From positions 175,551-239,550 of IMG/VR virus record IMGVR_UViG_3300033183_000491: DNA of 64,000 bases; one strand, written 5' to 3'. The stretch is from a virus. The position numbers and the translations under genes are program-made. The notes under the pieces are model-generated. The model was not told the origin of the DNA. It searched no databases and worked only from the letters and a program-made list of their open reading frames with translations. Shown piece by piece: positions 22,120 through 52,226 of the stretch (position 1 is its first letter; each line of letters begins with the position of its first letter).

Positions 22120-23577
22120 TTATCCAAAAGTTTTAATAACCGGGTCATAAGCTGTTGGTGCACCCGGTTGGTCCATAACTGCTTTTCTACCTGAACTTGG
22201 AGATTCTTTTTCTTTTGCTTTCTTTTTCGAAAGAGCATATTTTAAAGTTTTTACCATAAAATGAACATGTTGCCAAATATTTTTATAAAACCTATTCAAA
22301 TCTACGTCTTCTAAATTAACAGGATTGCCTTCAGAATCTATGTCAATATCTTTTATCACAACAGACCTAAACGAAGGTTTAACTTCAGATCTACTTAATT
22401 CTTCTTTTACAAACTCATTATATCCGTTTGAAAAAATCTTTCTTAATTCGATTTTAGCTTTCTCTTTATCAGACGATTCATCAGACTCAATATACGAATT
22501 TAGTTTTTTACTAACTTCTGTCGGTGTGTTTGACCATCTATACCAATTACTCATTAACATTCCAGTAAACATATTTGGTTCAAATTTTAAATGATAAATT
22601 AAACTATCTAACATTTCTTCGAACTGTTTTTTATTATAATCAAAGTAATACAAAGGATCACCTGATGCTTGAACATAATCTAAATCTCTTTTGACACCAG
22701 CAGTAGATTCATCGTCATATAAACTAAAATCTCCTGAAGATCCTTGGTCTCTTATTATCTTTTTAGCCTCCTCTTCAGAAAATGTTACACTATAACCCAT
22801 TCTTTCCAAACAGCCTGTCCAATTTAAATCATTAAATTTTCTTCTAAATAAATTATGTATAGAATCTCTATCGTGAATATTTTTAATATCAAGTCCTACT
22901 TCGACTAATCCAAATCTAAAAAATGAATTTCTTAGCTTTAAAATAATTTCTTTAGAAGTAAACATATACTCACCTTCAGTATTGTATTTTACTTTAAAGT
23001 CATTTTTCCCAATATCAGATGATCTTGTAGGATATTGGTCTCCTCTTTGAAGGCTTCGACTATATTCGCTTTGGCTATACATACTGAAATTTGCCTGAAC
23101 GTGAGAAGCTAACAAATAAAAGACAGGGACAATAAATGGTTTGTTGTCATCATCTGAGATATTAACACTTATAATTCCTTGTTTAGATTTATTCATTTTT
23201 TCATTAACATAATCAATGTTTTCTTGACCGTCTGGAGTATCGCCAGGTCTAAATTTTCTAAACAGATAATCTTCTAAACTTTCATTATATTTAACGATGA
23301 AAGGATCTTCACTGTTACTTTTCTTGATGGTTGCTGAATAGTATTTACATTCATAAATGTTTTTATTAGGGTCGTCTCTTAAGTCATTCAACACACCCAA
23401 AATTACAGGAGAATGATTATTTTCATCTAAATTAATATTTTGAGGAATTTCTTTAAAATCGCTGCTTGTCTGTTTTTTTACATTAGTTTTTCTAGAAGAA
23501 GACGATCTTCCTCCAAATCTGCCTCTAGATCTACCTATTTCAAGTAGAAATTCTTTTACATATAATTCTAAACTCAT
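22120..23577 (-). CDS. Putative head-packaged protein with capsid-targeting N-terminus
   Basis: 485 residues. Begins MSLELYVKEFLLE, closely similar to MILENYIKEVLLFE of two genes at 28-30 kb. L-L-E fits the L/I-x-E cleavage site used by T4-type prohead proteases. Directly after it is a basic, Arg/Ser/Gly-rich stretch (GRSRGRFGGRSSSSRK), suited to contacting DNA inside the head. The remainder is helical, with no known domain. I infer an internal head protein that enters the cell with the DNA. Confidence 0.6.
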   Translation of the reverse strand: MSLELYVKEFLLEIGRSRGRFGGRSSSSRKTNVKKQTSSDFKEIPQNINLDENNHSPVILGVLNDLRDDPNKNIYECKYYSATIKKSNSEDPFIVKYNESLEDYLFRKFRPGDTPDGQENIDYVNEKMNKSKQGIISVNISDDDNKPFIVPVFYLLASHVQANFSMYSQSEYSRSLQRGDQYPTRSSDIGKNDFKVKYNTEGEYMFTSKEIILKLRNSFFRFGLVEVGLDIKNIHDRDSIHNLFRRKFNDLNWTGCLERMGYSVTFSEEEAKKIIRDQGSSGDFSLYDDESTAGVKRDLDYVQASGDPLYYFDYNKKQFEEMLDSLIYHLKFEPNMFTGMLMSNWYRWSNTPTEVSKKLNSYIESDESSDKEKAKIELRKIFSNGYNEFVKEELSRSEVKPSFRSVVIKDIDIDSEGNPVNLEDVDLNRFYKNIWQHVHFMVKTLKYALSKKKAKEKESPSSGRKAVMDQPGAPTAYDPVIKTFG

Positions 23578-23603
23578 TTTGAATCCTTGTTAAATATTTT
23601 ATA

Positions 23604-23897
23604 TTAATTATTCCACCAGTCATCAAAAGATCCCCAAGAAATTTTTTCATAATAACTTTCTGGAATACTTCCTACACAATCATAACTAAACCATTCACCT
23701 TCAAGGCGATACTTTTTAAGTCTTTCATGTAAATAATTTTCTTTCCACCCTTCACCTTTAAATTCAGCTATTAATTTTAGCTTATTAGGGTTTCCCGTTT
23801 GAAGCTGTTTTAATCTTTTTTGGGGATCTTTAGATCTACCTATTTTTATCATTCCTGTTACATCTGATTGTATTATGTATAAACTATCATTTTTCAT
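23604..23897 (-). CDS. GIY-YIG superfamily protein (T5orf172/MUG113 type)
   Basis: 97 residues: LYIIQSDVTGMIKIGRSKDP, K-R-L-K-Q-L-Q-T-G-N-P, L-H-E-R-L and GEWF, the ordered motifs of T5orf172/MUG113 domains, a GIY-YIG nuclease relative. In this group the first motif reads YII...IKIG and the catalytic Arg is in G-R-S. Probably a DNA nuclease or DNA-binding remnant. Stands alone between a head-protein gene and a divergent lysozyme gene. Confidence 0.8.
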   Translation of the reverse strand: MKNDSLYIIQSDVTGMIKIGRSKDPQKRLKQLQTGNPNKLKLIAEFKGEGWKENYLHERLKKYRLEGEWFSYDCVGSIPESYYEKISWGSFDDWWNN

Positions 23898-23957
23898 ATA
23901 TTAACTAATCCTATATATTTATCTTAAAATATATTATATAAAATTAAAGGAATCTAC

Positions 23958-25358
23958 ATGATTATAATAGCAGAAAATAAAAAGAACCACTATTTAATAA
24001 AAGAGTTTTTGTCTGAAGTTGTCTTTCTAAACGAAAATGATAATAAAGTATTAGGTTGGAAACCTGTCACAGACTCTGATATTTTTGACGCTATTACTAG
24101 TTCAAATAAAACTAATAATTTAGATAAAAAAACTTTTGCTGAAGATGATATTGCATCTGACACAATGATTACTAATTTTATTGAAAAAGCGCCAGAATAT
24201 TCTGGTATCTCTAAATACATTAAAAAAGGAATTATTACTTTAGGTGCTCTCGGACTCCTCTGGTCAGCTCATAAAATATCTTCAAATAATACAACACCTG
24301 ACCCTAAACCTAGTCAATCTCGTGAATTAGAATCTAACAAATTAGAAAATGAAGCATTAATTCATATTTCTAATAATTCTAATGCTAACAATGTTGACAT
24401 AGAAAATATTAAAAAGGTAATAAAGTCTAAACCTCAATCTGAAAGTGGAGAAATAGAACCAGAGAAAAAAGACGAAAAAGAGATATCTTTAAGTAAATTT
24501 AAACAATCATGTAAAGAAAGAATTAAAAAGTTCGAAGGATTTAAACCATTTCCATATCAGGATATGAAGGGAGTCTCAATTGGGTATGGAACACAGTTCA
24601 TTTTGTCAGGTGATGCAGGAAATCTAGAAGAAAGTTGGAAAGATTTAATCTACAAAAAGCTAGGCTATTCTGATAGCGAGATAGAATCTTTAAAATCAGA
24701 TAAAAAATATAAAAAGTCTATTGACAAAGATTTAAATTCTTATAAAGAAAGTCAGCAAAACTTAATTAAAAAATTAAAATCTAAGAGAGACAAAATTATT
24801 AATCCTTACAAAGGAAACAAAAAACCTAAAGGATGGAAGCCAAAATATAGGTTCCCTAAGTCTGAAAGGAAAAGGCTTTCAAGAATAATATCAAACATCC
24901 AATCTAGAATCGATGCTTCTAACAACAGAGGAATTATCACAACTTCTGAAGCAGAATCACTTCTTGTTAAAGATATCGAATTATCAATTAAAAAAGCTCA
25001 AAAAGATTTTGGAAATACATTTTTTAATATGGAAGAAGAAGTACAACTAGTTTTAATTGATTTATATTATAATATGGGACTTTATTTCTTAAATACAACA
25101 TATAAAAATCTTAAAAAAGCTTTAAATGAATATAAAAGTGAACTAGAAGGTGATAATAATAAAGAAAAAATAATTGAATTAATAGAAAAAATTAAAAATC
25201 AAATAAGTCCTAGTAATGCACCATTATATCACGAACAAAATTCTAAAAGAGCTAAAGCTAATAATAGCCTATTAGAAGATTCAATAGAAAATCTGAAGGA
25301 TTCTTTAAAAATAGAATCTTATTCGCTTAAAAGCTCTTTTAAACACTTGTTTTCATGA
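23958..25358 (+). CDS. Membrane-anchored lysozyme (GH24) with capsid-targeting-like N-terminus
   Basis: 466 residues. N-terminus ...HYLIKEFLSE fits the L-x-E cleavage pattern of neighbouring genes. One hydrophobic segment (about 90-106), then a linker, then a GH24 muramidase domain from about 181: catalytic Glu193 in KKFEGFKPFPYQD, Asp202 nine residues later as in T4 lysozyme, and SIGYGT with Ser in place of the usual Thr. An insertion of charged residues separates this from the second half (ITTSEAESLL, D-L-Y-Y-N-M-G). It cleaves peptidoglycan. Length is more than twice that of free T4 lysozyme. Confidence 0.8.
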   Translation: MIIIAENKKNHYLIKEFLSEVVFLNENDNKVLGWKPVTDSDIFDAITSSNKTNNLDKKTFAEDDIASDTMITNFIEKAPEYSGISKYIKKGIITLGALGLLWSAHKISSNNTTPDPKPSQSRELESNKLENEALIHISNNSNANNVDIENIKKVIKSKPQSESGEIEPEKKDEKEISLSKFKQSCKERIKKFEGFKPFPYQDMKGVSIGYGTQFILSGDAGNLEESWKDLIYKKLGYSDSEIESLKSDKKYKKSIDKDLNSYKESQQNLIKKLKSKRDKIINPYKGNKKPKGWKPKYRFPKSERKRLSRIISNIQSRIDASNNRGIITTSEAESLLVKDIELSIKKAQKDFGNTFFNMEEEVQLVLIDLYYNMGLYFLNTTYKNLKKALNEYKSELEGDNNKEKIIELIEKIKNQISPSNAPLYHEQNSKRAKANNSLLEDSIENLKDSLKIESYSLKSSFKHLFS

Positions 25359-25371
25359 AAGGAAGTCAAAC

Positions 25372-26127
25372 ATGAAAAATTTATTACTAGTATTTATTAT
25401 TTTATTTTCAAATGTATCTTATGGACAAGTCAATATCGAATCTGTAAGAGATACTGCTAAAAAAGACAAACCTTTTTGGGGAGAAGTCAAAGGAGGTCTT
25501 GAAATCCAAAAAGGAAACGTAAATGTTTTTTCTTACGATTTGGATATACTAACTCACTTCCAAAAAGAAAACCATCATATATTTCTTCAGGGGAAAACTT
25601 CAAGAGGTAAACAAAACGATAAAGCCTTTAAAAACTCTTCTTTTTCTCATTTAAGATGGACTTGGATGACTTGGAAATTTTTAGGACCTGAATTATTCAC
25701 GCAACTTCAACATGATGAATTTAAATCTTTAAAAATAAGGCAACTTAATGGGTTTGGATTAAGATCAGAATTTTTTCATTACGAAAATTTTGTTTTAAGT
25801 CTAGGTTCAGGTCTAATGTCAGATTACGAAAAAATTACGTTTGGAAAGACTTCTTTAAATTTACGAAGTACTTCATATCTTTCTTTACTTAAAACATTTG
25901 AAAAGAATAAAAAGAATTTAATTCTGTTAACACTTTATTATCAACCTTTAATAACTAATGCAAATGACTACAGAGTTAATCTAGAAGCAAACGTGAGATC
26001 AATTTTAATATCTTCATGGAACATATCAATAGACAATTCAATTAATTATTTATATGATACAAGACCACCTGAAGGTGTTGAGACAAATGACTTAGTTGTT
26101 AAAACTAACTTGGTTTATGAATGGTAA
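25372..26127 (+). CDS. Outer-membrane beta-barrel protein, DUF481/YdiY type
   Basis: 251 residues with a signal peptide (about 1-19, cleavage after SYG). FWGEVKGGLEIQKGNVNVFS then alternating strands with Y/F/W girdles, and a final aromatic (Y-E-W), all as in DUF481 outer-membrane proteins. It starts 13 bp after the lysozyme gene behind AAGGAAG, so the two form an operon. A phage-made outer-membrane protein could change the host surface, for instance to block later phages; that role is inference. Confidence 0.75.
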   Translation: MKNLLLVFIILFSNVSYGQVNIESVRDTAKKDKPFWGEVKGGLEIQKGNVNVFSYDLDILTHFQKENHHIFLQGKTSRGKQNDKAFKNSSFSHLRWTWMTWKFLGPELFTQLQHDEFKSLKIRQLNGFGLRSEFFHYENFVLSLGSGLMSDYEKITFGKTSLNLRSTSYLSLLKTFEKNKKNLILLTLYYQPLITNANDYRVNLEANVRSILISSWNISIDNSINYLYDTRPPEGVETNDLVVKTNLVYEW

Positions 26128-26133
26128 TATTTT

Positions 26134-26376
26134 TTATTGATTTTCTATGTAACCAAGTATATCTTTACAACTATTTAGTTTTTTAATTTCATCTAATGAA
26201 GCATCACCACAATTTTTAATATAATCAAATGCTCCTCTATGAAGTCCCATACAATCTGTTAAAATATCTTTTATTTGACTACATTCAGTAGTTACAATAA
26301 CTTCTTTCTTTTTTTCTACACAAGACATAGAAAATGCAAAAAAGAAAGAAAAACAAATTAAAATTTTTTTTAACAT
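26134..26376 (-). CDS. Small lipoprotein
   Basis: 80 residues. Signal peptide with lipobox F-S-M-S-C, lipidated Cys19; mature part with four further Cys, likely two disulfides in the periplasm. It lies convergent to the outer-membrane protein gene (6 bp apart) and follows the kinase-like gene. Superinfection exclusion or spanin-like roles are possible but not shown by sequence. Confidence 0.65.
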   Translation of the reverse strand: MLKKILICFSFFFAFSMSCVEKKKEVIVTTECSQIKDILTDCMGLHRGAFDYIKNCGDASLDEIKKLNSCKDILGYIENQ

Positions 26377-26378
26377 TT

Positions 26379-27335
26379 TTATTTCCTAACGTTTTTTGAA
26401 GAAAAATCTTTCCAAGATTCTAGATATTCTTTTTCCTTGTCTTCGTAGAACTCATACCAAGTCTGATTTTCTGGTTTAACATATTTAGGATCTTTTACTT
26501 TTTCAATATCCTTCAGATCCCTTTCTGCTTTTTTTCTTGATTTTACAGCATCAGAATCTTCTTCTCTTATTGTATAATCGAGAATCTTAATATCTTTTGG
26601 ACTAGGATTACTTGAGTTAACTATTCCAATATTTCCTGCATGAATATCATCTAACTTTGTATAAGCAAATATTTTTGCTATAGCATTATAATCTTCATAA
26701 AATTCAACTTCTTCAAAAGGCTTAACGTGAAAATAACCTTCTACTTGATCATAAAATTTCTTTTTTGTTACAGCTGGACCATCTGATTCTCTATAACTAA
26801 ATTCAAACAAAAGCTCAAGTATTTTCCTCGACAACTGATAATCACTCACTTCGTCGTCTAACATATTCGTAATTGTAGGAAAAATCTTTGATAATTCAAC
26901 TTTACCAACTGAATCTTCTAATGTTATAACTTTTTGACATATTAACCAAAGAGGCTTTTCGCTAATTTTATCATAATCATAAACTTCTACAAATATATCA
27001 CGTGGACCTTTACCATGCGCACCTTTAGAAACTTCTATTTCAAATTGATTAGTGTCAACAGCATTCTCGTTATTACTAACTTTTAAGACCCAATCTTCAT
27101 TAGGAATACTATACGCTGTTCTTTCTACACCTGATCCTAGTTTTTTTAAATTATAACTTTTAAGCTTGTAATAAAATAAATCAGGTAACCAAGTAAAACT
27201 ATATCCACTATTTATTCTTTCTTCAATATGTTTATTTAAATCTTTAACTAAATTTTCCAATGTTGTTGGATTAAAAGATTCAGTTAAATAAGATTTCCAA
27301 TTTTCAACTAAAAGTTTAAAATCTTTATTTTTCAT
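26379..27335 (-). CDS. Protein-kinase-like protein with capsid-targeting N-terminus
   Basis: 318 residues. Starts MKNKDFKLLVENWKSYLTES, where L-T-E before Ser is an excellent prohead-protease site. The body has kinase-fold landmarks in order: G-S-G-V-E-R-T-A-Y loop near 58, WVLKVS with the ATP-binding Lys near 74, a hinge PLWLICQKV, a catalytic-loop-like LDDIHAGNIGIV (D...N), and KILDYT in the DFG position. The C-terminal 60 residues are highly charged. I infer a kinase delivered with the genome, comparable in logic to T4 Alt. Confidence 0.65.
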   Translation of the reverse strand: MKNKDFKLLVENWKSYLTESFNPTTLENLVKDLNKHIEERINSGYSFTWLPDLFYYKLKSYNLKKLGSGVERTAYSIPNEDWVLKVSNNENAVDTNQFEIEVSKGAHGKGPRDIFVEVYDYDKISEKPLWLICQKVITLEDSVGKVELSKIFPTITNMLDDEVSDYQLSRKILELLFEFSYRESDGPAVTKKKFYDQVEGYFHVKPFEEVEFYEDYNAIAKIFAYTKLDDIHAGNIGIVNSSNPSPKDIKILDYTIREEDSDAVKSRKKAERDLKDIEKVKDPKYVKPENQTWYEFYEDKEKEYLESWKDFSSKNVRK

Positions 27336-27392
27336 TTTTTATTTCCTATAATTAGACTTGTAATTTATAATATTCTAATTATAATCATTAAT

Positions 27393-27551
27393 ATGAATTA
27401 TATAATAACATATGAAGAATTAACTTGTATTAATATCCTAATCAGAACTGTTCAAGAAGCTATTAATAGAAATTCATTTGACGAGGATGAAATTGAGTAT
27501 ATCTACAAACTCGTAGATAAATTAACTTCTAGTCATTGTGAGAATTGTTAA
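27393..27551 (+). CDS. Small plus-strand protein (tentative)
   Basis: 52 residues, MNYIITYEELTCINILIRTV to a C-terminal CENC. Acidic helix with three Cys. No clear ribosome site, but the composition is protein-like and it fills an otherwise empty gap. Its last 23 bp overlap the facing coiled-coil gene. Confidence 0.35.
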   Translation: MNYIITYEELTCINILIRTVQEAINRNSFDEDEIEYIYKLVDKLTSSHCENC

Positions 27552-28167
27552 CCACATCTTTTTGGACTTTGTCTACACCTTCAGTATTAATATTTATATT
27601 TTGATTAGATATTGATTTCAATTTATTTAAGAACACATCCGTTTCTTTTTCTTTTAAATAAATTGAACCCATTAAAGTTCCTGCTCTGTCTATAAACTCT
27701 TTAGGTAAAACTGATATTGTTGCTATACTTCTCTTTTTATTCTTTTCAGATAATTCCTCAACCTTGTCTAAATCTTTTCTTAGACTTTTAACATTATTAA
27801 TATTCACAGTCAGTTTTGTATTAATTGAATGAATTGAGCTTGATAAATTCTTGTCACTTTTAATTAACTCAATTTTTAAATCTTCAATGCTTTTTTTAAT
27901 TTGTTCAAGTCTATCTACATTAGACTTTAATTTTGAATTAAAATCTTCTAATGATTTATCTAAATTGTCATTTAAAACTTGAACTTTATCTTCTAAAACT
28001 TTTTCTTTAGGAGACTCTTCTTTAGGTTTAGATTCACTTTTAGAATTAATCAATGCAGTCCCAAGGGAAGTTATTGAAGTTATAACAGCTAAGATAACTG
28101 CTAACCATATATTTTTATCACTTCTTCCAGATACGTCTGATGTAATATTGTCTTCGTTTCCTGACAT
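27529..28167 (-). CDS. Membrane-anchored coiled-coil protein
   Basis: 212 residues. One TM helix at about 21-40 (IWLAVILAVITSITSLGTAL) and a long coiled coil (about 55-150) with regular Leu/Ile/Val heptads. The orientation suggests the coiled coil lies on one side of the inner membrane. No LxE tag. Function unknown; could scaffold injection or lysis. Confidence 0.6.
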   Translation of the reverse strand: MSGNEDNITSDVSGRSDKNIWLAVILAVITSITSLGTALINSKSESKPKEESPKEKVLEDKVQVLNDNLDKSLEDFNSKLKSNVDRLEQIKKSIEDLKIELIKSDKNLSSSIHSINTKLTVNINNVKSLRKDLDKVEELSEKNKKRSIATISVLPKEFIDRAGTLMGSIYLKEKETDVFLNKLKSISNQNININTEGVDKVQKDVVNNSHND

Positions 28168-28183
28168 AATTCCTCTTTAAGAT

Positions 28184-29062
28184 TTAAATCCATGCTAAAA
28201 TATATATAAATCCATCCTGAAGTTTGTGATTTTCTATTTCTGACTCAAATCTACTTAAAGTAGAGTTTTTGTGAACATTTTCATAACATTCTTTAAAAAA
28301 ATCTCTTAAATCATCATCTGACAAGTAACTATAACTTCCTATATTATCAAAATCAATACTATCTGCATCTTCCTTAGAAGACATTTCTGTCAAACAATAA
28401 GAATATATACTTGACCACACATCATCTTCACCAAGTTCAGGCGTAAATCCTATTCGTTTAAAAAATCTATAAACAGAAGTTATATAGTTATTAAGTAAAA
28501 CTCTTGACTTTCCAGCTATCTTCTCAACATTATGGCGTCTAACACCATCCTTATCAGCTTCTGAATGATGTATGTCATGAATCATCCAATTCATTTGATT
28601 CTTCAAAGAAAGAACTTGATTTTTTACTTGTTCTTCTTTATCAAATCCAAAAGGGTTTCCAAATAACTTCTCAGGAAGATCTCCTGCTTGTGGAGGAACA
28701 CACAAAATTGGTTTATTATCTTTTAAATTACAATTACTAAAATTAAAATTATGTAAGTGTTTTAAAAGTTGAATAACTTTATTATTCTTTTTTAGCACTA
28801 ATAATGGCCATCTTTTACTTGTCATAATATTAGAATATGCTACATCTTCAAGATCTTTCCCGCGATACTCTTTATCTGATATGACAACTTTTTCTATTTC
28901 AGAACGAAGTTCATCAATATTAAATAAACCTTTAAAAATTTGCTTTAAACTTGTCTTGTCAAAATCAGCAATTACTAAATCATAATCAAAAGGCTTTTTA
29001 AAAAAATCAGGAAAATTTCTTTCAAATAATAAAACTTCTTTTATATAGTTTTCTAATATCAT
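28184..29062 (-). CDS. Putative head-packaged protein with MILENYIKEVLLFE leader
   Basis: 292 residues. The first 14 residues are identical to those of the next gene and encoded by an identical 43-bp stretch. L-F-E is the expected cleavage site. The body contains WMIHDIHHSEADK near residue 159, a cluster of His/Asp/Glu that could bind metal, but I do not recognise a family. Ends 2 bp before the start of nothing else on that strand until 28167; likely co-transcribed with 29065-29811. Confidence 0.6.
   Translation of the reverse strand: MILENYIKEVLLFERNFPDFFKKPFDYDLVIADFDKTSLKQIFKGLFNIDELRSEIEKVVISDKEYRGKDLEDVAYSNIMTSKRWPLLVLKKNNKVIQLLKHLHNFNFSNCNLKDNKPILCVPPQAGDLPEKLFGNPFGFDKEEQVKNQVLSLKNQMNWMIHDIHHSEADKDGVRRHNVEKIAGKSRVLLNNYITSVYRFFKRIGFTPELGEDDVWSSIYSYCLTEMSSKEDADSIDFDNIGSYSYLSDDDLRDFFKECYENVHKNSTLSRFESEIENHKLQDGFIYILAWI
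29020..29062. repeat. 43-bp direct repeat encoding the leader peptide, copy 1
   Basis: Identical to 29769-29811. It covers the first 14 codons and one further base of the gene; similarity stops there at once, so the leader is a transferable module. Confidence 0.92.
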
Positions 29063-29064
29063 GA

Positions 29065-29811
29065 TTAATCCAGATTAAAAGATAAATTAAAATTTTTGTT
29101 TTTGTTTAAGAGTTTAATAATACTCAAATCATCTTTAAAGAAAGCATAGGAAAGAGAAATTTCGACATCCTTCCAATTTATTTCTTTATCACTCTTACTC
29201 AAATAATCTAAAGAAGACATTTGTTTTAAATCGTCTTCTTCGAAATCAGGAGTCATTTGACTCATTTCAATACCCGGATCTTCTTTTGCGCTTTTAATAG
29301 ATTTTTGATCAATATCCATTTTAACAGAATGTAAATTAGATTCAATTTTCGATCTTTCTAAAAATTTATCCCAAACTCTTTTAGCATCTTGAGAAACTGT
29401 TCTTCTATCTGAAAGAAGTGCTCCTGGTTGCATTAACAAACTAGAAATTACTTCTAAACCTATTTCATAAACTAAAGGACCAAACCCTTTTTCTGCTCTT
29501 GAATTTCCTACTTGATATGCCCTTCTTTTTTTAGAAAGCTTCACACCTTTTTCATCAACACCTACAACCCACTTTCGTGTCTCTTTTCCTTTTCTTTCTA
29601 ATCTATCAGCTAACATAAAATTAATATAAGCTACATTGTTTCCTTTAATATTAATTCTAACTGAAAATCCAGACGATCCACTTATACTCTCAACCAGTAT
29701 GTCAACAACCTCTCCCGATTTGCTCAATCTATTAATTATATTTGCTATTTTATTGTTAACAACAACATTTTCAAATAATAAAACTTCTTTTATATAGTTT
29801 TCTAATATCAT
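29065..29811 (-). CDS. Putative head-packaged protein with acetyltransferase-like core
   Basis: 248 residues, leader MILENYIKEVLLFE. The core EKGFGPLVYEIGLEVISS, then L-L-S-DRRTVS-x-DA-x-RVWDKFLERS, resembles a domain I know from T4-like phage virion proteins with a GNAT-like GYGPLLYD...SDR..VS..A..VW pattern. The C-terminal third is acidic. First gene of the minus strand next to the intergenic region, so it heads the left-going transcription. Confidence 0.6.
   Translation of the reverse strand: MILENYIKEVLLFENVVVNNKIANIINRLSKSGEVVDILVESISGSSGFSVRINIKGNNVAYINFMLADRLERKGKETRKWVVGVDEKGVKLSKKRRAYQVGNSRAEKGFGPLVYEIGLEVISSLLMQPGALLSDRRTVSQDAKRVWDKFLERSKIESNLHSVKMDIDQKSIKSAKEDPGIEMSQMTPDFEEDDLKQMSSLDYLSKSDKEINWKDVEISLSYAFFKDDLSIIKLLNKNKNFNLSFNLD
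29769..29811. repeat. 43-bp direct repeat encoding the leader peptide, copy 2
   Basis: Identical to 29020-29062, 749 bp away, at the start of the adjacent gene. Confidence 0.92.
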
Positions 29812-30104
29812 ATTTTTACTCTGCTTTAATTTTTATCTACTAAACTATATATTCTAATCAATATAGCAAATTTATTAAAACAGAGCAAAATTAAAAACTT
29901 GAATTCAAACAATCTCTTTCTTTATTTTATTATATAAAATTAATTCGCTCACACACGTAAACCCTTTCAAACCATCAAATCGTTATCCAAATTAATCTCA
30001 GATTACTCTTTAATACCCAACACCATAAAACATATATAAATCTCTCAAACACTCTTCTCACACAATTCTCAAATCAATCACACCCAATGCGACGCCCTCT
30101 CAAG

Positions 30105-30134
30105 CGCCGCTCGCTCTATCGCCACTCGCTCTAC
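30105..30134. repeat. Tandem 15-bp repeat
   Basis: CGCCGCTCGCTCTAT at 30105-30119 and CGCCACTCGCTCTAC at 30120-30134, two mismatches. The only G/C-dense spot in the G-poor tract; could be an iteron-like binding site. Confidence 0.6.
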
Positions 30135-44045: not shown

Positions 44046-44074
44046 GTGTAAATAAAACATTCTTTGGATATAAT
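44046..44074 (+). promoter_or_regulatory. Early-type promoter P23
   Basis: GTGTAA 44046-44051, TATAAT 44069-44074, spacer 17, then AAATCACAAGGTCCAT. Duplicate of P21. Confidence 0.82.
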
Positions 44075-44123
44075 AAATCACAAGGTCCATCAAACAAACA
44101 CTCATTTCATTATAAGGACAAAA

Positions 44124-45296: not shown

Positions 45297-45314
45297 TTAA
45301 AGGAAAACAATATA

Positions 45315-45470
45315 ATGTTAGTATCTAAAATTACTGCAGGTGATGTTTCTCGGATTACTAAATTAGACCCAGAAGACATTGGGAGATATGGAGTATGGCA
45401 TAAAGGTTTAATCATTTACGTTTCTAATAGTAAAGACAAATGTAATAAATTGATTAAAGAAATATCATAA
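45315..45470 (+). CDS. Small early protein
   Basis: 51 residues, MLVSKITAGDVSRITKLDPE then DIGRYGVWHKGLIIYVSNSK. Compact, no membrane segment. AAAGGAAA lies 10 bases upstream, 18 bp after the ligase stop. Confidence 0.5.
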   Translation: MLVSKITAGDVSRITKLDPEDIGRYGVWHKGLIIYVSNSKDKCNKLIKEIS

Positions 45471-45480
45471 AGATTAAAAT

Positions 45481-45509
45481 GTGTATTTAATCAAAATTTG
45501 GTTTATAAT
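45481..45509 (+). promoter_or_regulatory. Early-type promoter P24
   Basis: GTGTAT 45481-45486, TATAAT 45504-45509, spacer 17, then AAATCATAAGGTCCCAT. Confidence 0.82.
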
Positions 45510-45557
45510 AAATCATAAGGTCCCATAAATAAATCTTCATTCATAAGGATTCAAACA

Positions 45558-45728
45558 ATGGAAAATTTCCTAGCACCAAGTTTTTTCATCCCCACGTTTT
45601 TAAGCATTCTTATTTTAATGTTAGTTGTAACTATAATGTTTAACGGGAGAGTTACTTTATTAAAATCTTTTATTTATGCAGCATGTATTTATATGCTTTT
45701 CATCATTAATAGTATTCCACGACTTTAA
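45558..45728 (+). CDS. Two-TM membrane microprotein
   Basis: 56 residues, MENFLAPSFFIPTFLSILIL..., TM helices about 9-27 and 37-52. Same layout as the microproteins at 43298 and 36595. AAGGATTC upstream. Confidence 0.55.
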   Translation: MENFLAPSFFIPTFLSILILMLVVTIMFNGRVTLLKSFIYAACIYMLFIINSIPRL

Positions 45729-45746
45729 TATACAAGGGGTATTCAA

Positions 45747-46445
45747 ATGAACAAAGGATTCCAGTACGAGAATAAAATCTTAAATCTTATGAAATCTATT
45801 AATTTGGTTCCTGAAGAATTTGTTAATAGACAGCCTGCAGGTTCAGATAGTACACAACCTGACTTGATTTTAAATCTAAAAGGTAAAAATGTTAATGTTG
45901 AAATTAAAGAAAATATTCGAGCTCAAGCTGGTGGAACATCTATCAGGTATATAGATGGTAGTTTTTCTCTTGTCAAATCAAATGAAGATGTATGTGAAGA
46001 TGAAATATATAATGTCTTATACGAAAAGAAAAATCATATAGACAATCTTATTGAATTTCATAAATCATCAAGTATTCCTTTTGCAACTACAAAAGACTTA
46101 TGGATAAAGTCTGTGGAGAAAAACTTGTTGAAGAATATTAATACAAAGATTGAATCTAAATCTGAAGTTATTGAAAATCATTATGTTAATAAAGATACAT
46201 ACTATATCCACATTGGAGGAAAAGGTCTTTATTACATGAAAGATGATATTCTAAATCTAGGTGTTCCAAGGCTTAAATCTAAAGTTCGATTAGAAATAAG
46301 AGCTACAAGGAACGGGTCTAGATTGAACAAACAAGGTGTTAGGATATGTAATGCTACTCTTCGAATGCAATCAAGAATTCTAGAATTAGAAAAAAGTCCT
46401 TATTCTTTAGAAAACATTTCGTCTATTACAAGTTTAGCATCTTGA
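45747..46445 (+). CDS. PD-(D/E)XK nuclease-like protein
   Basis: 232 residues. G-F-Q-Y-E-N-K helix, then AGSDSTQPDLIL with the metal-binding Asp39, and NVNVEIKENIRAQAGGTS with E52-x-K54 and a following Q60. This is the PD-(D/E)XK core. The second half is less clear. Candidate for host-DNA degradation or Holliday-junction work. AAGGGG is 9 bases upstream, in one unit with the microprotein. Confidence 0.7.
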   Translation: MNKGFQYENKILNLMKSINLVPEEFVNRQPAGSDSTQPDLILNLKGKNVNVEIKENIRAQAGGTSIRYIDGSFSLVKSNEDVCEDEIYNVLYEKKNHIDNLIEFHKSSSIPFATTKDLWIKSVEKNLLKNINTKIESKSEVIENHYVNKDTYYIHIGGKGLYYMKDDILNLGVPRLKSKVRLEIRATRNGSRLNKQGVRICNATLRMQSRILELEKSPYSLENISSITSLAS

Positions 46446-46468
46446 TCAAAAAGGTTAAGATTGATATT

Positions 46469-46497
46469 GTGTAAATAAAATATTTTTTACATATAAT
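46469..46497 (+). promoter_or_regulatory. Early-type promoter P25
   Basis: GTGTAA 46469-46474, TATAAT 46492-46497, spacer 17, then AAACCACAAGG. Drives paralogue 3. Confidence 0.82.
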
Positions 46498-46544
46498 AAA
46501 CCACAAGGTTCAACAAATAAACATTCATTCAAAAAGGTTTTAAA

Positions 46545-47267
46545 ATGGATAATCATCAAGAAAACTTAAACTCAACTGATATTTTGGTTTCTTCTTTAAT
46601 CAATCACTTTAATGACAACAAACAAGGATTTACTTCTTATAGATTTCTTATTGACAAAATCTTGAAAGAAAACATTAAACCTTTGACAAAGGGAAAATCT
46701 AATATTAAAACAGACAGTGGATGGCGGTCTGACCTTATGGAAAGGTTTAGTGGAAGAGGAGCTAAATGGGTCTTTGTAAGCCTACAAGACATTGAACCTA
46801 CGTTAAAATCACTTGAAGATTCTGGTATTAATTGTGACTTCTATAGAAAACATATTAATATAATTGGAAAAGCTTGGATTAGATTTATTGGTCCTCGTAT
46901 TAATAATGGAGTTAACAGCGCCTCATTTGAGGTAAGAACAGAAGGTTCGACAATTATCAGTTCCAACCAAGTCCATTATATTCCAGTTGAATCATTAGAC
47001 GATACAATTGAAATGTTAAATACAACTCCTAAGTCACTTAAGCTAGAAGAAGATTCAGCTCCAATGCCTAAGACATCTAAACCAAAGAAAAAGTCTCCAA
47101 AACCAAAGAAACAAAATCTTTTAGAGACATTAGGAAATGAAATCAATGAAGAGCTTCAAGAAGTTGAATTAAATATTCCACCACAAAATGATGATCCGGA
47201 TGATTGGGAAGCCTTTCTCGCTTCTGAAGGTTTAATCGACGATGATTTTATGAATGATGATATCTAA
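46545..47267 (+). CDS. Unknown early protein, GRGAKW family, paralogue 3
   Basis: 240 residues, the longest member. The core RFSGRGAKWVFVSLQDIEPT, GKAWIRFIGPRINNG, EVRTEGSTI and TPKSLKLEED is plain; between the core and an acidic C-terminus lies a Pro/Lys linker (KTSKPKKKSPKPKK). The family N-terminal domain is kept (F-T-S-Y-R-F-L-I-D-K...NIKPLTK). More AT-rich in codon use than paralogues 1 and 2. Confidence 0.8.
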   Translation: MDNHQENLNSTDILVSSLINHFNDNKQGFTSYRFLIDKILKENIKPLTKGKSNIKTDSGWRSDLMERFSGRGAKWVFVSLQDIEPTLKSLEDSGINCDFYRKHINIIGKAWIRFIGPRINNGVNSASFEVRTEGSTIISSNQVHYIPVESLDDTIEMLNTTPKSLKLEEDSAPMPKTSKPKKKSPKPKKQNLLETLGNEINEELQEVELNIPPQNDDPDDWEAFLASEGLIDDDFMNDDI

Positions 47268-47280
47268 TATACAATAACAA

Positions 47281-47329
47281 TACTTGCATAGCATACATCT
47301 CGCATCGTCAAAATATTGTTATGCAAGTA
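47281..47329 (+). promoter_or_regulatory. Inverted repeat directly before tRNA-Ile
   Basis: TACTTGCATAGCA (47281-47293) and TGTTATGCAAGTA (47317-47329): 13 pairs with one G-T. The second arm ends 4 nt before the tRNA. Confidence 0.65.
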
Positions 47330-47333
47330 ATAT

Positions 47334-47406
47334 CCTCCTATAGCTCAGCGGTTAGAGCAGCACTCTTATAAGGTGAAGGTCCCCAGTTCAATCCTGGGTA
47401 GGAGGA
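47334..47406 (+). tRNA. tRNA-Ile(TAT)
   Basis: 73-nt cloverleaf: acceptor CCTCCTA/TAGGAGG, D stem GCTC/GAGC, anticodon loop CTTATAA, T arm CCCAG-TTCAATC-CTGGG. Anticodon TAT reads AUA. The top pair of the anticodon stem (G27-A43) is a mismatch. AUA is frequent in the AT-rich phage genes. Confidence 0.85.
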
Positions 47407-47440
47407 CTTTAACATTTTAAACTTATACAAGGATATTATC

Positions 47441-47635
47441 ATGACACACGCTACATACACAACCTTCAACAATCAGACTGATGTTTTCGTTTCATTCTCA
47501 GCAGTTTCTCATGTTATCAATGACAAAGAATCAGGATGTTGGATTTGGTTTCACAGTGGAAAATGCATTCATGTAACAGAGAGCATGTCTGAAGTTACTG
47601 ACGACATGGTAGATTATTTCTCAACTAGAAAGTAA
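47441..47635 (+). CDS. Small unknown protein
   Basis: 64 residues, MTHATYTTFNNQTDVFVSFS start, beta-rich N-terminus with WIWFHSGKCIHV, acidic C-terminus. AAGGATATT upstream. Follows the tRNA, perhaps on the same transcript. Confidence 0.55.
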   Translation: MTHATYTTFNNQTDVFVSFSAVSHVINDKESGCWIWFHSGKCIHVTESMSEVTDDMVDYFSTRK

Positions 47636-47639
47636 TTAA

Positions 47640-47945
47640 ATGAATCTAACGGTTAAAGAATCATTCTTATTAAGACAAGGATTTGGAAAAAGTAATATTT
47701 TCTTTCCTGAGAATTCTAGAATTAAGTTTATTAAAGAAACTTATAGTTTTTATCACTCTTATTATAAGTCGCACAGTTATAAAATTCTAATTCATTTTAA
47801 AACAATTCCGATTGAATTAGATCTTCAAAAGAAGACTGATAGGGAAACTTACGAAGTTATGAAATGTAATCTTATTCATAAAAACTTGAGTCAAATAACT
47901 TGGAATGATTTATTTAATGAGGAATGTCCATTAAGTGTAACTTAA
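47640..47945 (+). CDS. Unknown small protein
   Basis: 101 residues, aromatic and basic (ETYSFYHSYYKSHSYKILIH). No family recognised. Four bases after the previous stop; its last codons contain the -35 of P26. Confidence 0.5.
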   Translation: MNLTVKESFLLRQGFGKSNIFFPENSRIKFIKETYSFYHSYYKSHSYKILIHFKTIPIELDLQKKTDRETYEVMKCNLIHKNLSQITWNDLFNEECPLSVT

Positions 47946-47963
47946 TAAAATTTGTATTATAAT
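47935..47963 (+). promoter_or_regulatory. Early-type promoter P26
   Basis: GTGTAA 47935-47940, TATAAT 47958-47963, spacer 17. Confidence 0.75.
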
Positions 47964-48005
47964 ATTTAAAACATCATTCAATCATATATTCATAAGAGTT
48001 AAATC

Positions 48006-48170
48006 ATGAAAAATGAAGATATATCAAGTATACTATATCTTGTTACTTTTGTAACTTTAGTTTTTTCCTTAATTTATCTTATTACTTTGTTTCCAACATA
48101 TTTTTCAGGTTTTTTCTTTGGAATAGTATCATATTCTTTGCTTGATGCATTCAATAAAAAAGACTTGTAA
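48006..48170 (+). CDS. Two-TM membrane microprotein
   Basis: 54 residues, MKNEDISSILYLVTFVTLVF..., TM helices about 8-28 and 32-46, then DAFNKKDL. AAGAG upstream. Confidence 0.55.
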   Translation: MKNEDISSILYLVTFVTLVFSLIYLITLFPTYFSGFFFGIVSYSLLDAFNKKDL

Positions 48171-48196
48171 AAGATATTCTATTATAGGCGGTTATT

Positions 48197-48394
48197 ATGG
48201 AAAAATATTTTTCTTATGTAGGTACACATTCTCTTGAAGAAGCAAAACAGAATAATACTGTAAATATAATATTTCATTTGTCTTCAAGAGAAATTGCTAT
48301 TAAAAGATGTGATAGAACATGGAAAGACAAAGAATATTCTCTATATACCTTTGAAAACTTTCAAAACAACTCAACATTTACTAAGATTATATAA
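48197..48394 (+). CDS. Small unknown protein
   Basis: 65 residues, MEKYFSYVGTHSLEEAKQNN start; basic, mixed alpha/beta. Ribosome site GGCGG. No family recognised. Confidence 0.5.
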   Translation: MEKYFSYVGTHSLEEAKQNNTVNIIFHLSSREIAIKRCDRTWKDKEYSLYTFENFQNNSTFTKII

Positions 48395-48403
48395 GGATTT
48401 TAT

Positions 48404-48688
48404 ATGGATTATTATGACTTTGCAGAAACAGCTGCTGTAATTGAAAAAGAACTTGGTATTAGAATGCATTTAGATATTGTGTTTAATAATCAGTTATTAA
48501 ATAAATACTTTAACTATTCTTATAATAAAAAAGAAGACATTTTAACTATTAATTTTGAATTAGATGAAGGCAGCGCGACTATGAACATATATGAATTATA
48601 TTCAGAAGAAGTCGATGATTTTGATTATGATTTTAATGATGTTCTTAAGAAACATATAGAGAATCTAGGTAGAACATGGACAGAGTAA
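48404..48688 (+). CDS. Acidic unknown protein
   Basis: 94 residues, acidic (YSEEVDDFDYDFNDV), helical start (DFAETAAVIEKELGIRMHLD). AAGGAT upstream. Overlaps the next gene by 13 bp. Confidence 0.55.
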   Translation: MDYYDFAETAAVIEKELGIRMHLDIVFNNQLLNKYFNYSYNKKEDILTINFELDEGSATMNIYELYSEEVDDFDYDFNDVLKKHIENLGRTWTE

Positions 48689-48945
48689 TCTTTATGTTTA
48701 AAGAAAAGGTTTATGCAAGAATAGTTACAGATTTTCAAGATCAAAACATCGACATTGATCAAACAAATGAATATACTATGTATGAACTTCACAGGTCAAT
48801 GAAAGATCTTAAAAAATACTCGGAAGTTTTTATTAACCCTAGCAATCCAAAACAACTGATAGCGACATCAAAAGGACGTCTTCTTTCAATAGAAATCTTG
48901 TCAGAAATAACTTGGTTTGATTTAGATTATTATTATGGACAATAA
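48676..48945 (+). CDS. Unknown small protein
   Basis: 89 residues from ATG 48676, inside the end of the preceding gene; mixed alpha/beta, ends FDLDYYYGQ. No family recognised. Confidence 0.5.
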   Translation: MDRVIFMFKEKVYARIVTDFQDQNIDIDQTNEYTMYELHRSMKDLKKYSEVFINPSNPKQLIATSKGRLLSIEILSEITWFDLDYYYGQ

Positions 48946-49056
48946 ATGAACTGTTATTATGATTATTTTATTAATGCTTGTGTCTGTGAACAGCAAGTAG
49001 AAAATATTCCCCTTTCAGAATTATTTCTTTTTGTTATTGAGATTTTTAATGTATAA
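48946..49056 (+). CDS. Microprotein, possibly coupling
   Basis: 36 residues, MNCYYDYFINACVCEQQVEN..., directly after the preceding stop and overlapping the next start by 8 bp. Three Cys. Its main role may be to carry ribosomes to the lipoprotein start. Confidence 0.35.
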   Translation: MNCYYDYFINACVCEQQVENIPLSELFLFVIEIFNV

Positions 49057-49345
49057 ACTTATATTGTTTCTTTCTATGACGTTTTTTTTGTTTTATGGCT
49101 GCACTGATGCTGAACTCACAAAGTTTACAACATTAGGTCAAAAAGCAGAAATTATTTGTCGAAGTGGTGGTATAATATCTTTTCATGGTATCTCAACTGG
49201 TAAAGTATTAAATGAAAAAAACAGCGATGGATATTATGCTAAATGGGAAATAATCCAAGCCCCAGATTACAAACATTCAAAAGCTGGAGATTTTAGAACA
49301 GCAACACTTTCAAGTGATTGTAATATTATTTATATCGAAGACTAA
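49049..49345 (+). CDS. Early lipoprotein
   Basis: 98 residues from ATG 49049 (the ATG at 49031 would add six residues). Signal peptide MYKLILFLSMTFFLFYGC, lipidated Cys18. Mature part with two Cys and DGYYAKWEIIQAPDY. Its layout (CRSGG...C) recalls that of the lipoprotein at 41030 only loosely. Confidence 0.6.
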   Translation: MYKLILFLSMTFFLFYGCTDAELTKFTTLGQKAEIICRSGGIISFHGISTGKVLNEKNSDGYYAKWEIIQAPDYKHSKAGDFRTATLSSDCNIIYIED

Positions 49346-49369
49346 AACATGAAAACGGGAGTAATTTAA

Positions 49370-49738
49370 TTGACTATTAAGAACATTCTTTTTATCCTTA
49401 CTGTAATATTAATTGGTTGTGAAGCAGAACAAAAAAGTATTAGTAACGTTGATTTCTTGTTAGATTCTGGTTATCAAAACCTAGAATGCAAATTAAAATA
49501 CAATATCGAAGATAATACATACGAATCTTTAGCAGAAGTAATCCCAAAATCTAATAAACTTGAAATGCTTTTAGCAAGATGTATAAATGATAAATGCGAT
49601 TATTTTTCATTAGAATCAAAAATAATGCCTGCAAAGATTTTATGTCAAAAGTTCTATTCGAACAATAAAACTGAATATGATTTTAATCAAATTGTTCTTA
49701 CTTATAACACTGAATATTTTAAAGATATTAAAGAATAA
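49370..49738 (+). CDS. Early lipoprotein, TTG start
   Basis: 122 residues. TTG at 49370 follows GGGAG by 8 bases. Signal peptide MTIKNILFILTVILIGC, lipidated Cys17, mature part with four more Cys (LECKLKYN, ARCINDKCDYF, ILCQKF). Adjacent to another lipoprotein gene, so the pair may work together at the envelope. Confidence 0.6.
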   Translation: MTIKNILFILTVILIGCEAEQKSISNVDFLLDSGYQNLECKLKYNIEDNTYESLAEVIPKSNKLEMLLARCINDKCDYFSLESKIMPAKILCQKFYSNNKTEYDFNQIVLTYNTEYFKDIKE

Positions 49739-49741
49739 TTT

Positions 49742-49770
49742 GTGTAAATATAAGTTTTATAAGTTATAAT
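49742..49770 (+). promoter_or_regulatory. Early-type promoter P27
   Basis: GTGTAA 49742-49747, TATAAT 49765-49770, spacer 17. Confidence 0.77.
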
Positions 49771-49812
49771 AATATATAATAAATACTTTCTTAAAATTTA
49801 AAGGAGAATATA

Positions 49813-50004
49813 ATGAATATTCCATATATTAGCTTAATGCTTCTTTATCTAATTCCAATTAGTGCAATGCTCGTAATTAATTCTTCGAAAGATATTAAAG
49901 ATATCTCTAAGAGAGTTAAAGAGGGAGATTACCTTGTAATTGTAGAAAAATGTGCTGCTCCTATTTTGTCATTAGGAATTATGTCTTCTTTTTATCTATA
50001 TTAA
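49813..50004 (+). CDS. Two-TM membrane protein
   Basis: 63 residues, TM helices about 3-23 and 45-62 with a charged loop (SSKDIKDISKRVKEGDY). AAAGGAG is 7 bases upstream. Unknown function. Confidence 0.55.
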   Translation: MNIPYISLMLLYLIPISAMLVINSSKDIKDISKRVKEGDYLVIVEKCAAPILSLGIMSSFYLY

Positions 50005-50008
50005 AACT

Positions 50009-50296
50009 ATGATGAAAAATATTATTGATTATGATCTTGGAGATATTTCTATAAAGAAAGTTTCAAATGGATGGATCTTACTGGAAGGTTCTCCCCTTGA
50101 AGAAGGAAAAGTTATTTTTTCTGCATATGAATCTAAAGAAGCTTATGAGATTAATAAATCTGACTCCACTGAAGATGCTAAATCTCTTAAAAGGCTTCTA
50201 GAAGATGTCTTTTCAGGGTATTTAAGATCTAAACATTACGGTGGTCTAGAAATCAAATTCCATGAAAGTGGATATGAAATCGAAGATCAAGAATAA
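50009..50296 (+). CDS. Unknown acidic protein
   Basis: 95 residues (MMKNIIDYDLGDISIKKVSN start), alpha/beta with a helix EDAKSLKRLLEDVFSGYL. No family recognised. Four bases after the membrane-protein stop. Confidence 0.55.
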   Translation: MMKNIIDYDLGDISIKKVSNGWILLEGSPLEEGKVIFSAYESKEAYEINKSDSTEDAKSLKRLLEDVFSGYLRSKHYGGLEIKFHESGYEIEDQE

Positions 50297-50325
50297 AAAT
50301 TCAAAAGATTAATAAAAATTAATTT

Positions 50326-50354
50326 GTGTAAATTTAAACCAATTAGGTTATAAT
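50326..50354 (+). promoter_or_regulatory. Early-type promoter P28
   Basis: GTGTAA 50326-50331, TATAAT 50349-50354, spacer 17, then AAACCATAAGGTAAAT. Confidence 0.82.
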
Positions 50355-50397
50355 AAACCATAAGGTAAATATTAAAAAACATTTTATAGGATAAATA

Positions 50398-50559
50398 ATG
50401 ACTACGCACATTTCATTGTTTCAATTTGGATGCGAAATTTTTGGTTACGATAATGCTATGAAAATGAACTCTAATAAATTAAGATCATATTATGATGATT
50501 GGAAAACTACAACATATTCTATTAAACAATACAAAGCTCTACTAAACACGAGAGGATAA
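50398..50559 (+). CDS. Small unknown protein
   Basis: 53 residues, MTTHISLFQFGCEIFGYDNA..., basic C-terminus. ATAGGAT upstream. No family recognised. Confidence 0.5.
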   Translation: MTTHISLFQFGCEIFGYDNAMKMNSNKLRSYYDDWKTTTYSIKQYKALLNTRG

Positions 50560-50564
50560 TTAAA

Positions 50565-50951
50565 ATGTCTAATTTTCAAACTTATATTTATGATTACCTA
50601 AATGAGAAGCTAGGAAGCGACAACGGCACTTCTGAAAAATGGTGGAGTTGGAAGCATGGTATTTTATACCCTAACACTAAAAATATTGATATTGATTTAG
50701 AAAAAAACTTGCTTAATAACAATGTAGTTGTTGGGTTTAATTTTGATACTACACTTTGCAATCAAAAAGATATATCAAGGTTTTTAAAGTCACTAAATGT
50801 AAACTATAAAGACGATACTGATAGTAGGAATAAAAATAATAACTTGAGACTAAAAGTTTGTTTTTCAAATGAAAATACTGATGTTAATCGATTTATATTT
50901 AAATCGATCATGAGGTATTCTTTTATTAATAAAAACATTAGTATTAACTGA
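50565..50951 (+). CDS. Unknown protein
   Basis: 128 residues (MSNFQTYIYDYLNEKLGSDN start), with a WWSWKHG turn and a basic second half. No family recognised. Follows the previous gene by 5 bp; GAGGAT is the ribosome site. Confidence 0.55.
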   Translation: MSNFQTYIYDYLNEKLGSDNGTSEKWWSWKHGILYPNTKNIDIDLEKNLLNNNVVVGFNFDTTLCNQKDISRFLKSLNVNYKDDTDSRNKNNNLRLKVCFSNENTDVNRFIFKSIMRYSFINKNISIN

Positions 50952-50954
50952 TCT

Positions 50955-51263
50955 ATGAAAGAAGAGCATTTGTTATTATTTTCTAAATATAAAAGTGAAT
51001 ATTCAAATCAATTATCGAAAATACTCTTAGCTGATGAAGATGATCTTTTTTTCTTAGATAAAAAAATAGACTCAGACTTATATAAAAGGTTTATTAAAAC
51101 ATCAACAAGTTCAGGAAGTTTATCTTTTAAAATTGAGAAAAGTAATTATAAAATAAAACTAATGTCTATATTTGGGATACCTTATTTACTTGACGAAAAC
51201 AATGGTTGCAATCATATTGTAATCAAAAAATTTGATCTATCAAGAGTTCCTAATAATCTCTGA
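50955..51263 (+). CDS. Unknown protein
   Basis: 102 residues, helical start (EEHLLLFSKYKSEYSNQLSK), then beta-rich. Three bases after the previous stop. No family recognised. Confidence 0.55.
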   Translation: MKEEHLLLFSKYKSEYSNQLSKILLADEDDLFFLDKKIDSDLYKRFIKTSTSSGSLSFKIEKSNYKIKLMSIFGIPYLLDENNGCNHIVIKKFDLSRVPNNL

Positions 51264-51366
51264 TAGATTTAGAATCAATATTTCTATATTGACTTTTACT
51301 TAGTTCTATTATTATATAATGGTTCTAAGTTACCCAAACTATTTTATCTATTTGAAAGGACATACA

Positions 51367-51762
51367 ATGGGAAACATGATGTTTGACACTAACCGCTTTA
51401 TCGAGAACACTTCAGTCAATCAAATGAAAAACGGAACAATTCAGTTTATGGATACATATAATCCAGGAGTATATTATACAGCACATAGGAATGGAACAGT
51501 AAACCGAGTTATTAAGACAAACGAAACAGTTATCACACACGATGGAACTAATACAACTCAACAAAATGTAAGAATGAAGACTGAGTATAATCGAATTAAC
51601 TATCGCCCTTCTAGTAATAGAAACGATTTTGTTCGTCTATATCGACTTTCAGATCAACTAGGAAGAATCCAAGAAGTTGCTGCATATTATCAACCAAGAA
51701 ATAATAAAACAATGAATGTTTCAAAATCTGATTCACAAACTATTATTACAACTCCTCGTTAA
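51367..51762 (+). CDS. Basic protein, paralogue of 38818-39147
   Basis: 131 residues from ATG 51367 (GAAAGGACA upstream; the earlier in-frame ATG at 51319 has no ribosome site). KNGTIQFMD and YYTAHRNGTVNRVI mirror the relative's KNGTRAF and IYTSHSNGYVRREV. Thr/Asn-rich C-terminus. A TATAAT at 51315-51320 may be its -10. Confidence 0.6.
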   Translation: MGNMMFDTNRFIENTSVNQMKNGTIQFMDTYNPGVYYTAHRNGTVNRVIKTNETVITHDGTNTTQQNVRMKTEYNRINYRPSSNRNDFVRLYRLSDQLGRIQEVAAYYQPRNNKTMNVSKSDSQTIITTPR

Positions 51763-51802
51763 TTTTGTTTAACATCTAATACATAAATAATATAATACAT
51801 AA

Positions 51803-51840
51803 TGAACTTCTTTTGATAAACATATATTTTAAGAAGTTCA
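51803..51840 (+). promoter_or_regulatory. Inverted repeat directly before tRNA-Met
   Basis: TGAACTTCTT (51803-51812) and AAGAAGTTCA (51831-51840), 10 perfect pairs, 18-nt loop, ending 4 nt before the tRNA. A TATAAT at 51791-51796 lies just upstream. Confidence 0.65.
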
Positions 51841-51844
51841 CTAT

Positions 51845-51917
51845 GGGCCTTTGTTGTAATGGTTAGCATCGCACTCTCATAAAGTGTTTGGTCTGGGTTC
51901 AAGTCCCAGGGGGCCTA
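51845..51917 (+). tRNA. tRNA with CAT anticodon (Met or lysidine-Ile)
   Basis: 73-nt cloverleaf: acceptor GGGCCTT/GGGGCCT with G-T pairs, weak D stem, anticodon stem GCACT/AGTGT with loop CTCATAA, T arm CTGGG-TTCAAGT-CCCAG. CAT could be elongator Met or, if modified, Ile for AUA. The acceptor stem is less regular than in the other tRNAs. Confidence 0.8.
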
Positions 51918-52226
51918 CTAGTTTATTTTTTTGCCGCTAAAACTTTTGTCTTTAGTCTTAGAGAAAATATATCCTCCTCTTTCATAATCACGATTATTAC
52001 TCTTGTCTGAGATTAATTCTTCAACGCTTTCAGGGAGTTCTCCGTAACTATGATCATATTCTATGATATCAATATTTAATTCTGGGAAAATTTCTCCTGA
52101 TGTATTTAAAGAATGAATATTTTGAAAGGCGTCTTTTGTAAGTTGACTTTGATACTTTTCATTGATGAAGTTATTATTCCATTCTGTTAATAACTCTTTA
52201 AACTCTCTTCTATTTAATTTGCCCAT
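51918..52226 (-). CDS. Protein with capsid-targeting-like N-terminus
   Basis: 102 residues, start MGKLNRREFKELLTEWNNNF then INE. The FK-x-L-x-E-W...F-x-x-E pattern matches the leader of the kinase-like protein at 26379 (FKLLVENW...YLTE) and those of T4-type core proteins. Body acidic, no known domain. The only minus-strand gene between 31 and 63 kb; its stop abuts the tRNA. Confidence 0.6.
   Translation of the reverse strand: MGKLNRREFKELLTEWNNNFINEKYQSQLTKDAFQNIHSLNTSGEIFPELNIDIIEYDHSYGELPESVEELISDKSNNRDYERGGYIFSKTKDKSFSGKKIN

Follow-up and report, generated by a model that had tools for sequence, protein, structure and literature searches.

Recurring N-terminal leaders resembling T4 capsid-targeting propeptides in a large uncultured phage and its relatives

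Why should several otherwise unrelated proteins of one phage begin with short leaders that end in [LI]-x-E? The question is raised by six genes in a window of 64,000 nucleotides, the whole stretch of DNA analysed here, which corresponds to bases 175551-239550 of the 239,550-base virus record IMGVR_UViG_3300033183_000491. The answer favoured by the analysis is one familiar from phage T4, namely that the leaders are, as judged from their sequences, very probably capsid-targeting propeptides, which would direct proteins to the prohead and be cut off there. A sequence-only reading of the window had gone further and taken the proteins to be probably injected with the DNA. Its propeptide and targeting part is well supported, while injection, for which the argument is by analogy with T4, may hold and is proposed with lower confidence than targeting and cleavage.

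Six leaders and a genome-wide set

The six genes of the window, with the coordinates of each predicted leader and the residue that follows it, are these:

22120..23577, minus strand: leader gene 1, 485 amino acids; leader MSLELYVKEFLLE (23539-23577), then I
23958..25358, plus strand: leader gene 2, 466 amino acids; leader MIIIAENKKNHYLIKEFLSE (23958-24017), then V
26379..27335, minus strand: leader gene 3, 318 amino acids; leader MKNKDFKLLVENWKSYLTE (27279-27335), then S
28184..29062, minus strand: leader gene 4, 292 amino acids; leader MILENYIKEVLLFE (29021-29062), then R
29065..29811, minus strand: leader gene 5, 248 amino acids; leader MILENYIKEVLLFE (29770-29811), then N
51918..52226, minus strand: leader gene 6, 102 amino acids; leader MGKLNRREFKELLTEWNNNFINE (52158-52226), then K

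The leaders comprise five strings, one of them used twice, are 13-23 residues long, and lie, as had been claimed, at the N-termini of open reading frames with plausible starts. The accompanying statement that they stand at the very start of their proteins holds for three of them; in the other three, 5-10 residues precede the motif. Gene 51918..52226 contains an alternative cut site, LLTE15, and its leader scores 12 on a position model trained on other phages.

Chance alone often places an L/I-x-E triplet among the first 25 residues, and the leader ends might accordingly be coincidences in unrelated N-terminal helices. Because [LI]xE is so weak a pattern, the bare motif was rejected as evidence in favour of whole-leader tests, in which each leader served as a query to the remaining N-termini of its genome and internal windows of those proteins provided the null. 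The query ILENYIKEVLLFE found 15 N-termini where 1.4 were expected, LELYVKEFLLE likewise 15 (1.0 expected), and KLLVENWKSYLTE nine (1.5 expected); LLTEWNNNFINE (six found, 1.3 expected) and HYLIKEFLSE (three found, 0.9 expected) are weak taken alone. The individually weak leaders among the six are those of 23958 and 51918, that of 23958 being the weakest. The position model, trained only on other phages, recovered 10 N-termini in this genome versus 1.5 expected. Pairs of proteins with a similar N-terminus number 36 in this genome against 4-13 in later windows, and in two relatives 293 against 4-7 and 307 against 5-11; stretches of RM378, T7 and SPO1 showed no excess of N-terminal sharing over internal windows. 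Curated inspection gives an approximate count of 25 leader genes genome-wide, a set that reaches far beyond the region between 22120 and 52226 in which the six had been noticed. A run of five lies at L086:16091-17910, the rest of the first 60 kb holds others, and two adjoin the capsid gene. According to the trained model, relatives carry 42-50 leader genes each.

In two of the six genes, the likeness extends to the DNA, as a block of 43 nucleotides:

29020..29062, minus strand: leader block, first copy, in gene 28184-29062
29769..29811, minus strand: leader block, second copy, in gene 29065-29811

The 43 identical bases begin with the ATG and include one base beyond the codon for the final Glu of the leader, the predicted P1 residue, and the DNA before and after them shows no similarity; exactly two copies occur genome-wide when up to 3 mismatches are allowed. 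The same architecture, with unrelated sequence, is seen in the T4 genes ipII and ipIII, whose products are proven capsid-targeted proteins and in which an identical block spans the ribosome-binding region and the leader and stops just past the Glu codon. Synonymous codons within the leaders of one genome agree more often than expected (0.61 versus 0.40, and 0.67 versus 0.48), which fits the copying of leader DNA between genes, and leaders appear to have spread between genes as discrete DNA modules. For the leader set as a whole, coincidence is refuted by the excess over internal windows, found both here and in relatives, and by the 43-nucleotide block, and it is scarcely credible as an account of the [LI]-x-E ends; individual genes could be chance members.

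Predicted cut site and a gp21-type protease

Three leader classes are referred to below:

Class A: MKITKRQLKRIIRE, predicted cut after the last residue
Class B: MKLLREYIRELLTE, predicted cut after the last residue
Trp class (W): LLENWRKFLKE, with the last-but-one position variable (LLENWRKFLxE); it includes the leader of 26379

The leader MILENYIKEVLLFE was placed in class B by the homology of its cargo. The 419 proteins with the class-A core were chosen with P1 and P3 left free; Glu occupies P1 in 398 of them and Asp in none, and P3 is Ile or Val in 417. Most of those lacking Glu at P1 have one three to four residues further on. In 49 of 54 class-B cases, Glu stands at the expected position or the next one, and the leaders of relatives have Glu at P1 and I, L or V at P3. 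In class A, each position through P1 is conserved at 2-3.9 bits; the value is 1.7 bits at P1', the residue next after the predicted cut, and about zero from P3' on. Class B has 3.4 bits at P1 and at most 0.35 bits beyond. The class-A P1' residue is Ala in 55 and Ser in 20 of 103 leaders, and A, S, T or G in 80% against a background of 25%. Where class-A leaders continue with an acidic residue or Gln, a second [LIVMF]xE follows at a stereotyped distance (161 of 192). The leaders of T4 internal proteins are 10-19 residues long and end in L/I-X-E, and T4 processing is blocked by Asp at P1 (PMC9026906).

These details bear on a different account, in which the leaders are amphipathic helices directing proteins to a membrane or to another site of assembly or replication, with the Glu incidental. 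Classes A and B are indeed strongly amphipathic (moments of 0.82 and 0.65, respectively), and class A is also basic. However, the end position is Glu and never Asp, Ala or Ser comes next, conservation is lost exactly there, the preference is common to scaffold proteins, and the leaders are associated with an S77 protease, so that this account is improbable.

A gp21-type protease in the genome had been proposed as a test of the capsid-targeting reading, and an S77 domain was found (E value 2e-29), in which the residues aligned with His85, Ser140 and Asp168 of T4 gp21 are all kept. The domain is present in 16 of 18 records selected by their capsid protein, this one included, and in all 11 contigs selected on the leader alone that measure 140 kb or more. 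The record also has portal and large terminase genes, a gene for a gp23-type major capsid protein and, directly upstream of the latter, a putative scaffold gene. In front of the mature part of the capsid protein stands L-[KR]-E, invariant across the relatives compared, followed mostly by A, S or V, and positioned approximately as the T4 gp23 cut. In 43 scaffolds of relatives, A, S, T or G follows [LI]xE at 52% of 879 sites versus 30% after other Glu residues; in the scaffold of this phage it does so at 14 of 23 sites (binomial p 3e-4 against 25%). Capsid protein and scaffold thereby appear to carry the same cleavage motif as the leaders.

Two side observations concern head genes. In a relative of 257 kb, the prohead protease gene is split in frame (L074:4526-6217); the insert matches LAGLIDADG and, weakly, intein-splicing domains, and is apparently an intein. 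A small protein encoded just upstream of the scaffold at L021:7945-8163 shares KW-x(2)-[ST]GLL with the N-terminus of the capsid protein, possibly as a common core-binding motif.

Under the capsid-targeting reading, each leader would form a short helix at the N-terminus, by which its protein attaches to the core of the prohead. Once the prohead is assembled, the gp21-type (S77) protease encoded by the phage itself would cleave after the last Glu of [LI]-x-E, releasing the mature protein within the head. Mature leader proteins would consequently be present in virions, from which they may enter with the DNA and act in the newly infected cell.

Cargo in the window and in relatives

A lysozyme had been named among the cargo, and the 23958 product does match Pfam Phage_lysozyme (E 2.9e-5, above the family cut-off), with a hydrophobic segment after the leader and the lysozyme domain at about residues 186-220. 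A kinase-like character of 26379 is suggested by its motifs (LGSGVERTAY, VLKV, DDIHAGNIGIV, IKILD) and by a match to the uncharacterised phrog_4301 (E 4e-6); no Pfam kinase match was found, and no model supports the fold. The genome encodes two further paralogues of this protein, one with the leader MSYKDKNFFFNVWKDFLNE, then S, and Lys85, Asp230, Asn235 and Asp253 are invariant in all three; the structure model made from them had a predicted local distance difference test (pLDDT) score of 43, too poor for a fold search. The third paralogue (L087:1702-2976) is without a leader, and its N-terminal segment, MPYSIKKKNCKDSSGNKGK...CHTS, resembles the beginning of a protein from a relative (L102:8629-9360).

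The acetyltransferase-like label of 29065, which has no Pfam or NCBIfam match, drew a faint echo from Foldseek, where the best matches of a pLDDT-63 model are mostly GNATs (E 0.02, query template modelling score about 0.25); a GNAT-like fold is thus weakly suggested. The putative DNA-binding-like product of 22120 does have a basic segment, IGRSRGRFGGRSSSSRK, behind the predicted cut after E13, a feature visible in the sequence only. For 28184 and 51918, no cargo was recognisable. Peptide-pattern scans of IMG/VR found no relatives of the cargo of 22120, 26379, 28184 or 29065, and comparison with relatives' loci found none for 22120 and 28184 either; those of 29065 surfaced only through that comparison and whole-contig searches. 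No Alt-like domain was detected among the cargo scanned.

Removal of the first 20 residues from 232 leader proteins left 155 cargo clusters, and homologous cargo occurs behind leaders of classes A, B and W. The 29065 family, for example, is found behind both class A and class B leaders, and relatives of the protein at L086:17920 (MNVIKDYVRNFLLLE) start with MYSAKKEWNKFLLE, MKVTKRQLRRIIREEKARFLNE and MKLIMENWRRNMNE. Single leader proteins of relatives contain PAP2, phosphatidylserine decarboxylase, NUDIX, zeta-type kinase, HD and ribosome modulation factor domains.

As a separate observation, a protein related to Fe/Mn superoxide dismutases (L088:587-1303, L248-L253) was present in 8 of 8 genomes searched. 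Its leader end is [LI]xE followed by S or A in 6 of 7 aligned sequences, and most members retain Asp and one His in the C-terminal metal motif (DCWEHSYY).

The cargo also admits the view that leaders target and are cut, and that the proteins behind them are structural, core or DNA-condensing parts, kept in the head or degraded rather than injected as effectors. Two conserved small proteins of the head gene cluster have leader-like N-termini (e.g., MAKVSRSMLKSIVKE, L003:1786), most leader cargo is without a known enzymatic domain, and the superoxide dismutase-like protein occurs with its leader end as widely as expected of a core part. The strong differences in cargo among relatives argue the other way, as do the enzyme-like domains (lysozyme, NUDIX, zeta-type kinase, PAP2, HD), a pattern seen in the injected internal proteins of T4. 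Cargo made up of such head parts is possible but rather unlikely.

Phage setting and comparison with known systems

Relatives of the capsid protein were found in at least 597 IMG/VR stretches, and the nearest records in annotated collections are the uncultured 484-kb phage LR756508 (40% identity) and Rhodothermus phage RM378 (34%). Among annotated phages, only uncultured LR756508 came up for the class-A leader, at E 3, and the leader string did not occur in the literature searched. Its DNA pattern was found in only 3 metagenome-assembled genomes among 84,980 bacterial and archaeal genomes; these matches are likely phage contigs binned with bacteria, because one of the matching contigs, of 101,404 bases, is equal in length to an IMG/VR viral contig. 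The window itself has a guanine plus cytosine (GC) content of 30.6%. Between its leader genes sit a gene for a DUF481 protein (25372-26376; Pfam E 1.5e-17) and a small lipoprotein-like gene; it further contains an S-adenosylhomocysteine hydrolase gene (52304-53599; Pfam E 3e-128) and, at 47334-54767, seven transfer RNA genes, five of them clustered at 54084-54767.

Several points weigh against the capsid-targeting reading and its extension to injected cargo. The P1' residue in the leaders of this genome is not clearly Ala or Ser, and the cultured relative RM378 has gp21 and lacks leaders. PAP2 and phosphatidylserine decarboxylase cargo, as seen in relatives, is unusual for head contents. No virion proteome of this clade was found, and a late-promoter search upstream of the leader genes, uninformative in a 30% GC genome, is counted here as well.

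Systems of this kind are already known; what is new is the scale, the several interchangeable leader classes, and the spread in a large uncultured phage group. The T4 internal proteins IPI, IPII and IPIII likewise have short N-terminal leaders ending in [LI]-x-E and the S77 protease gp21; there, too, unrelated proteins share a leader, which in two genes is covered by an identical stretch of DNA. They differ in that T4 has a handful of leader genes, against about 25 here and 42-50 in relatives, and in that several classes occur here, reaching about 27 residues and frequently containing another [LI]xE; the cargo was not found to be related in sequence. T4 Alt, a head-packaged ADP-ribosyltransferase, is also an injected enzyme whose short propeptide is removed by gp21, whereas the candidate enzymes here are lysozyme, kinase-like and GNAT-like. 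In phage P1, the anti-restriction protein DarB is packed into the head through an N-terminal signal that can also bring in a foreign protein; this signal, however, may depend on correct folding, and no short tag that recurs is described (PMC9024508). Head proteins of the giant phages SPN3US (gp245) and PhiKZ are processed behind the Glu of a three-residue motif, a cut like that predicted here, and proteins are injected (PMC10052503, PMC9026906). In contrast to the present leaders, the PhiKZ motif is S/A-X-E, the SPN3US propeptides are mostly 111-254 residues long, and there is no short shared tag.

That a widespread group of uncultured giant T4-related phages possesses a general, module-based delivery system, in which interchangeable, mobile tags load 25-50 proteins, many of them enzymes, into the head for the next host, is a proposition for which we judge the chances even. 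Four proteins are known to be loaded into the T4 head by such leaders, and a handful of injected T4 proteins take immediate effect on host RNA polymerase and against host defences; the scale observed here suggests that many more proteins than the four of T4 enter the head, and perhaps the next host cell as well. Should dozens of proteins in each phage be tagged in this manner, early effectors and anti-defence candidates could be listed from sequence alone in hundreds of uncultured phages, and the leaders would constitute a natural tag set for loading proteins into phage heads.

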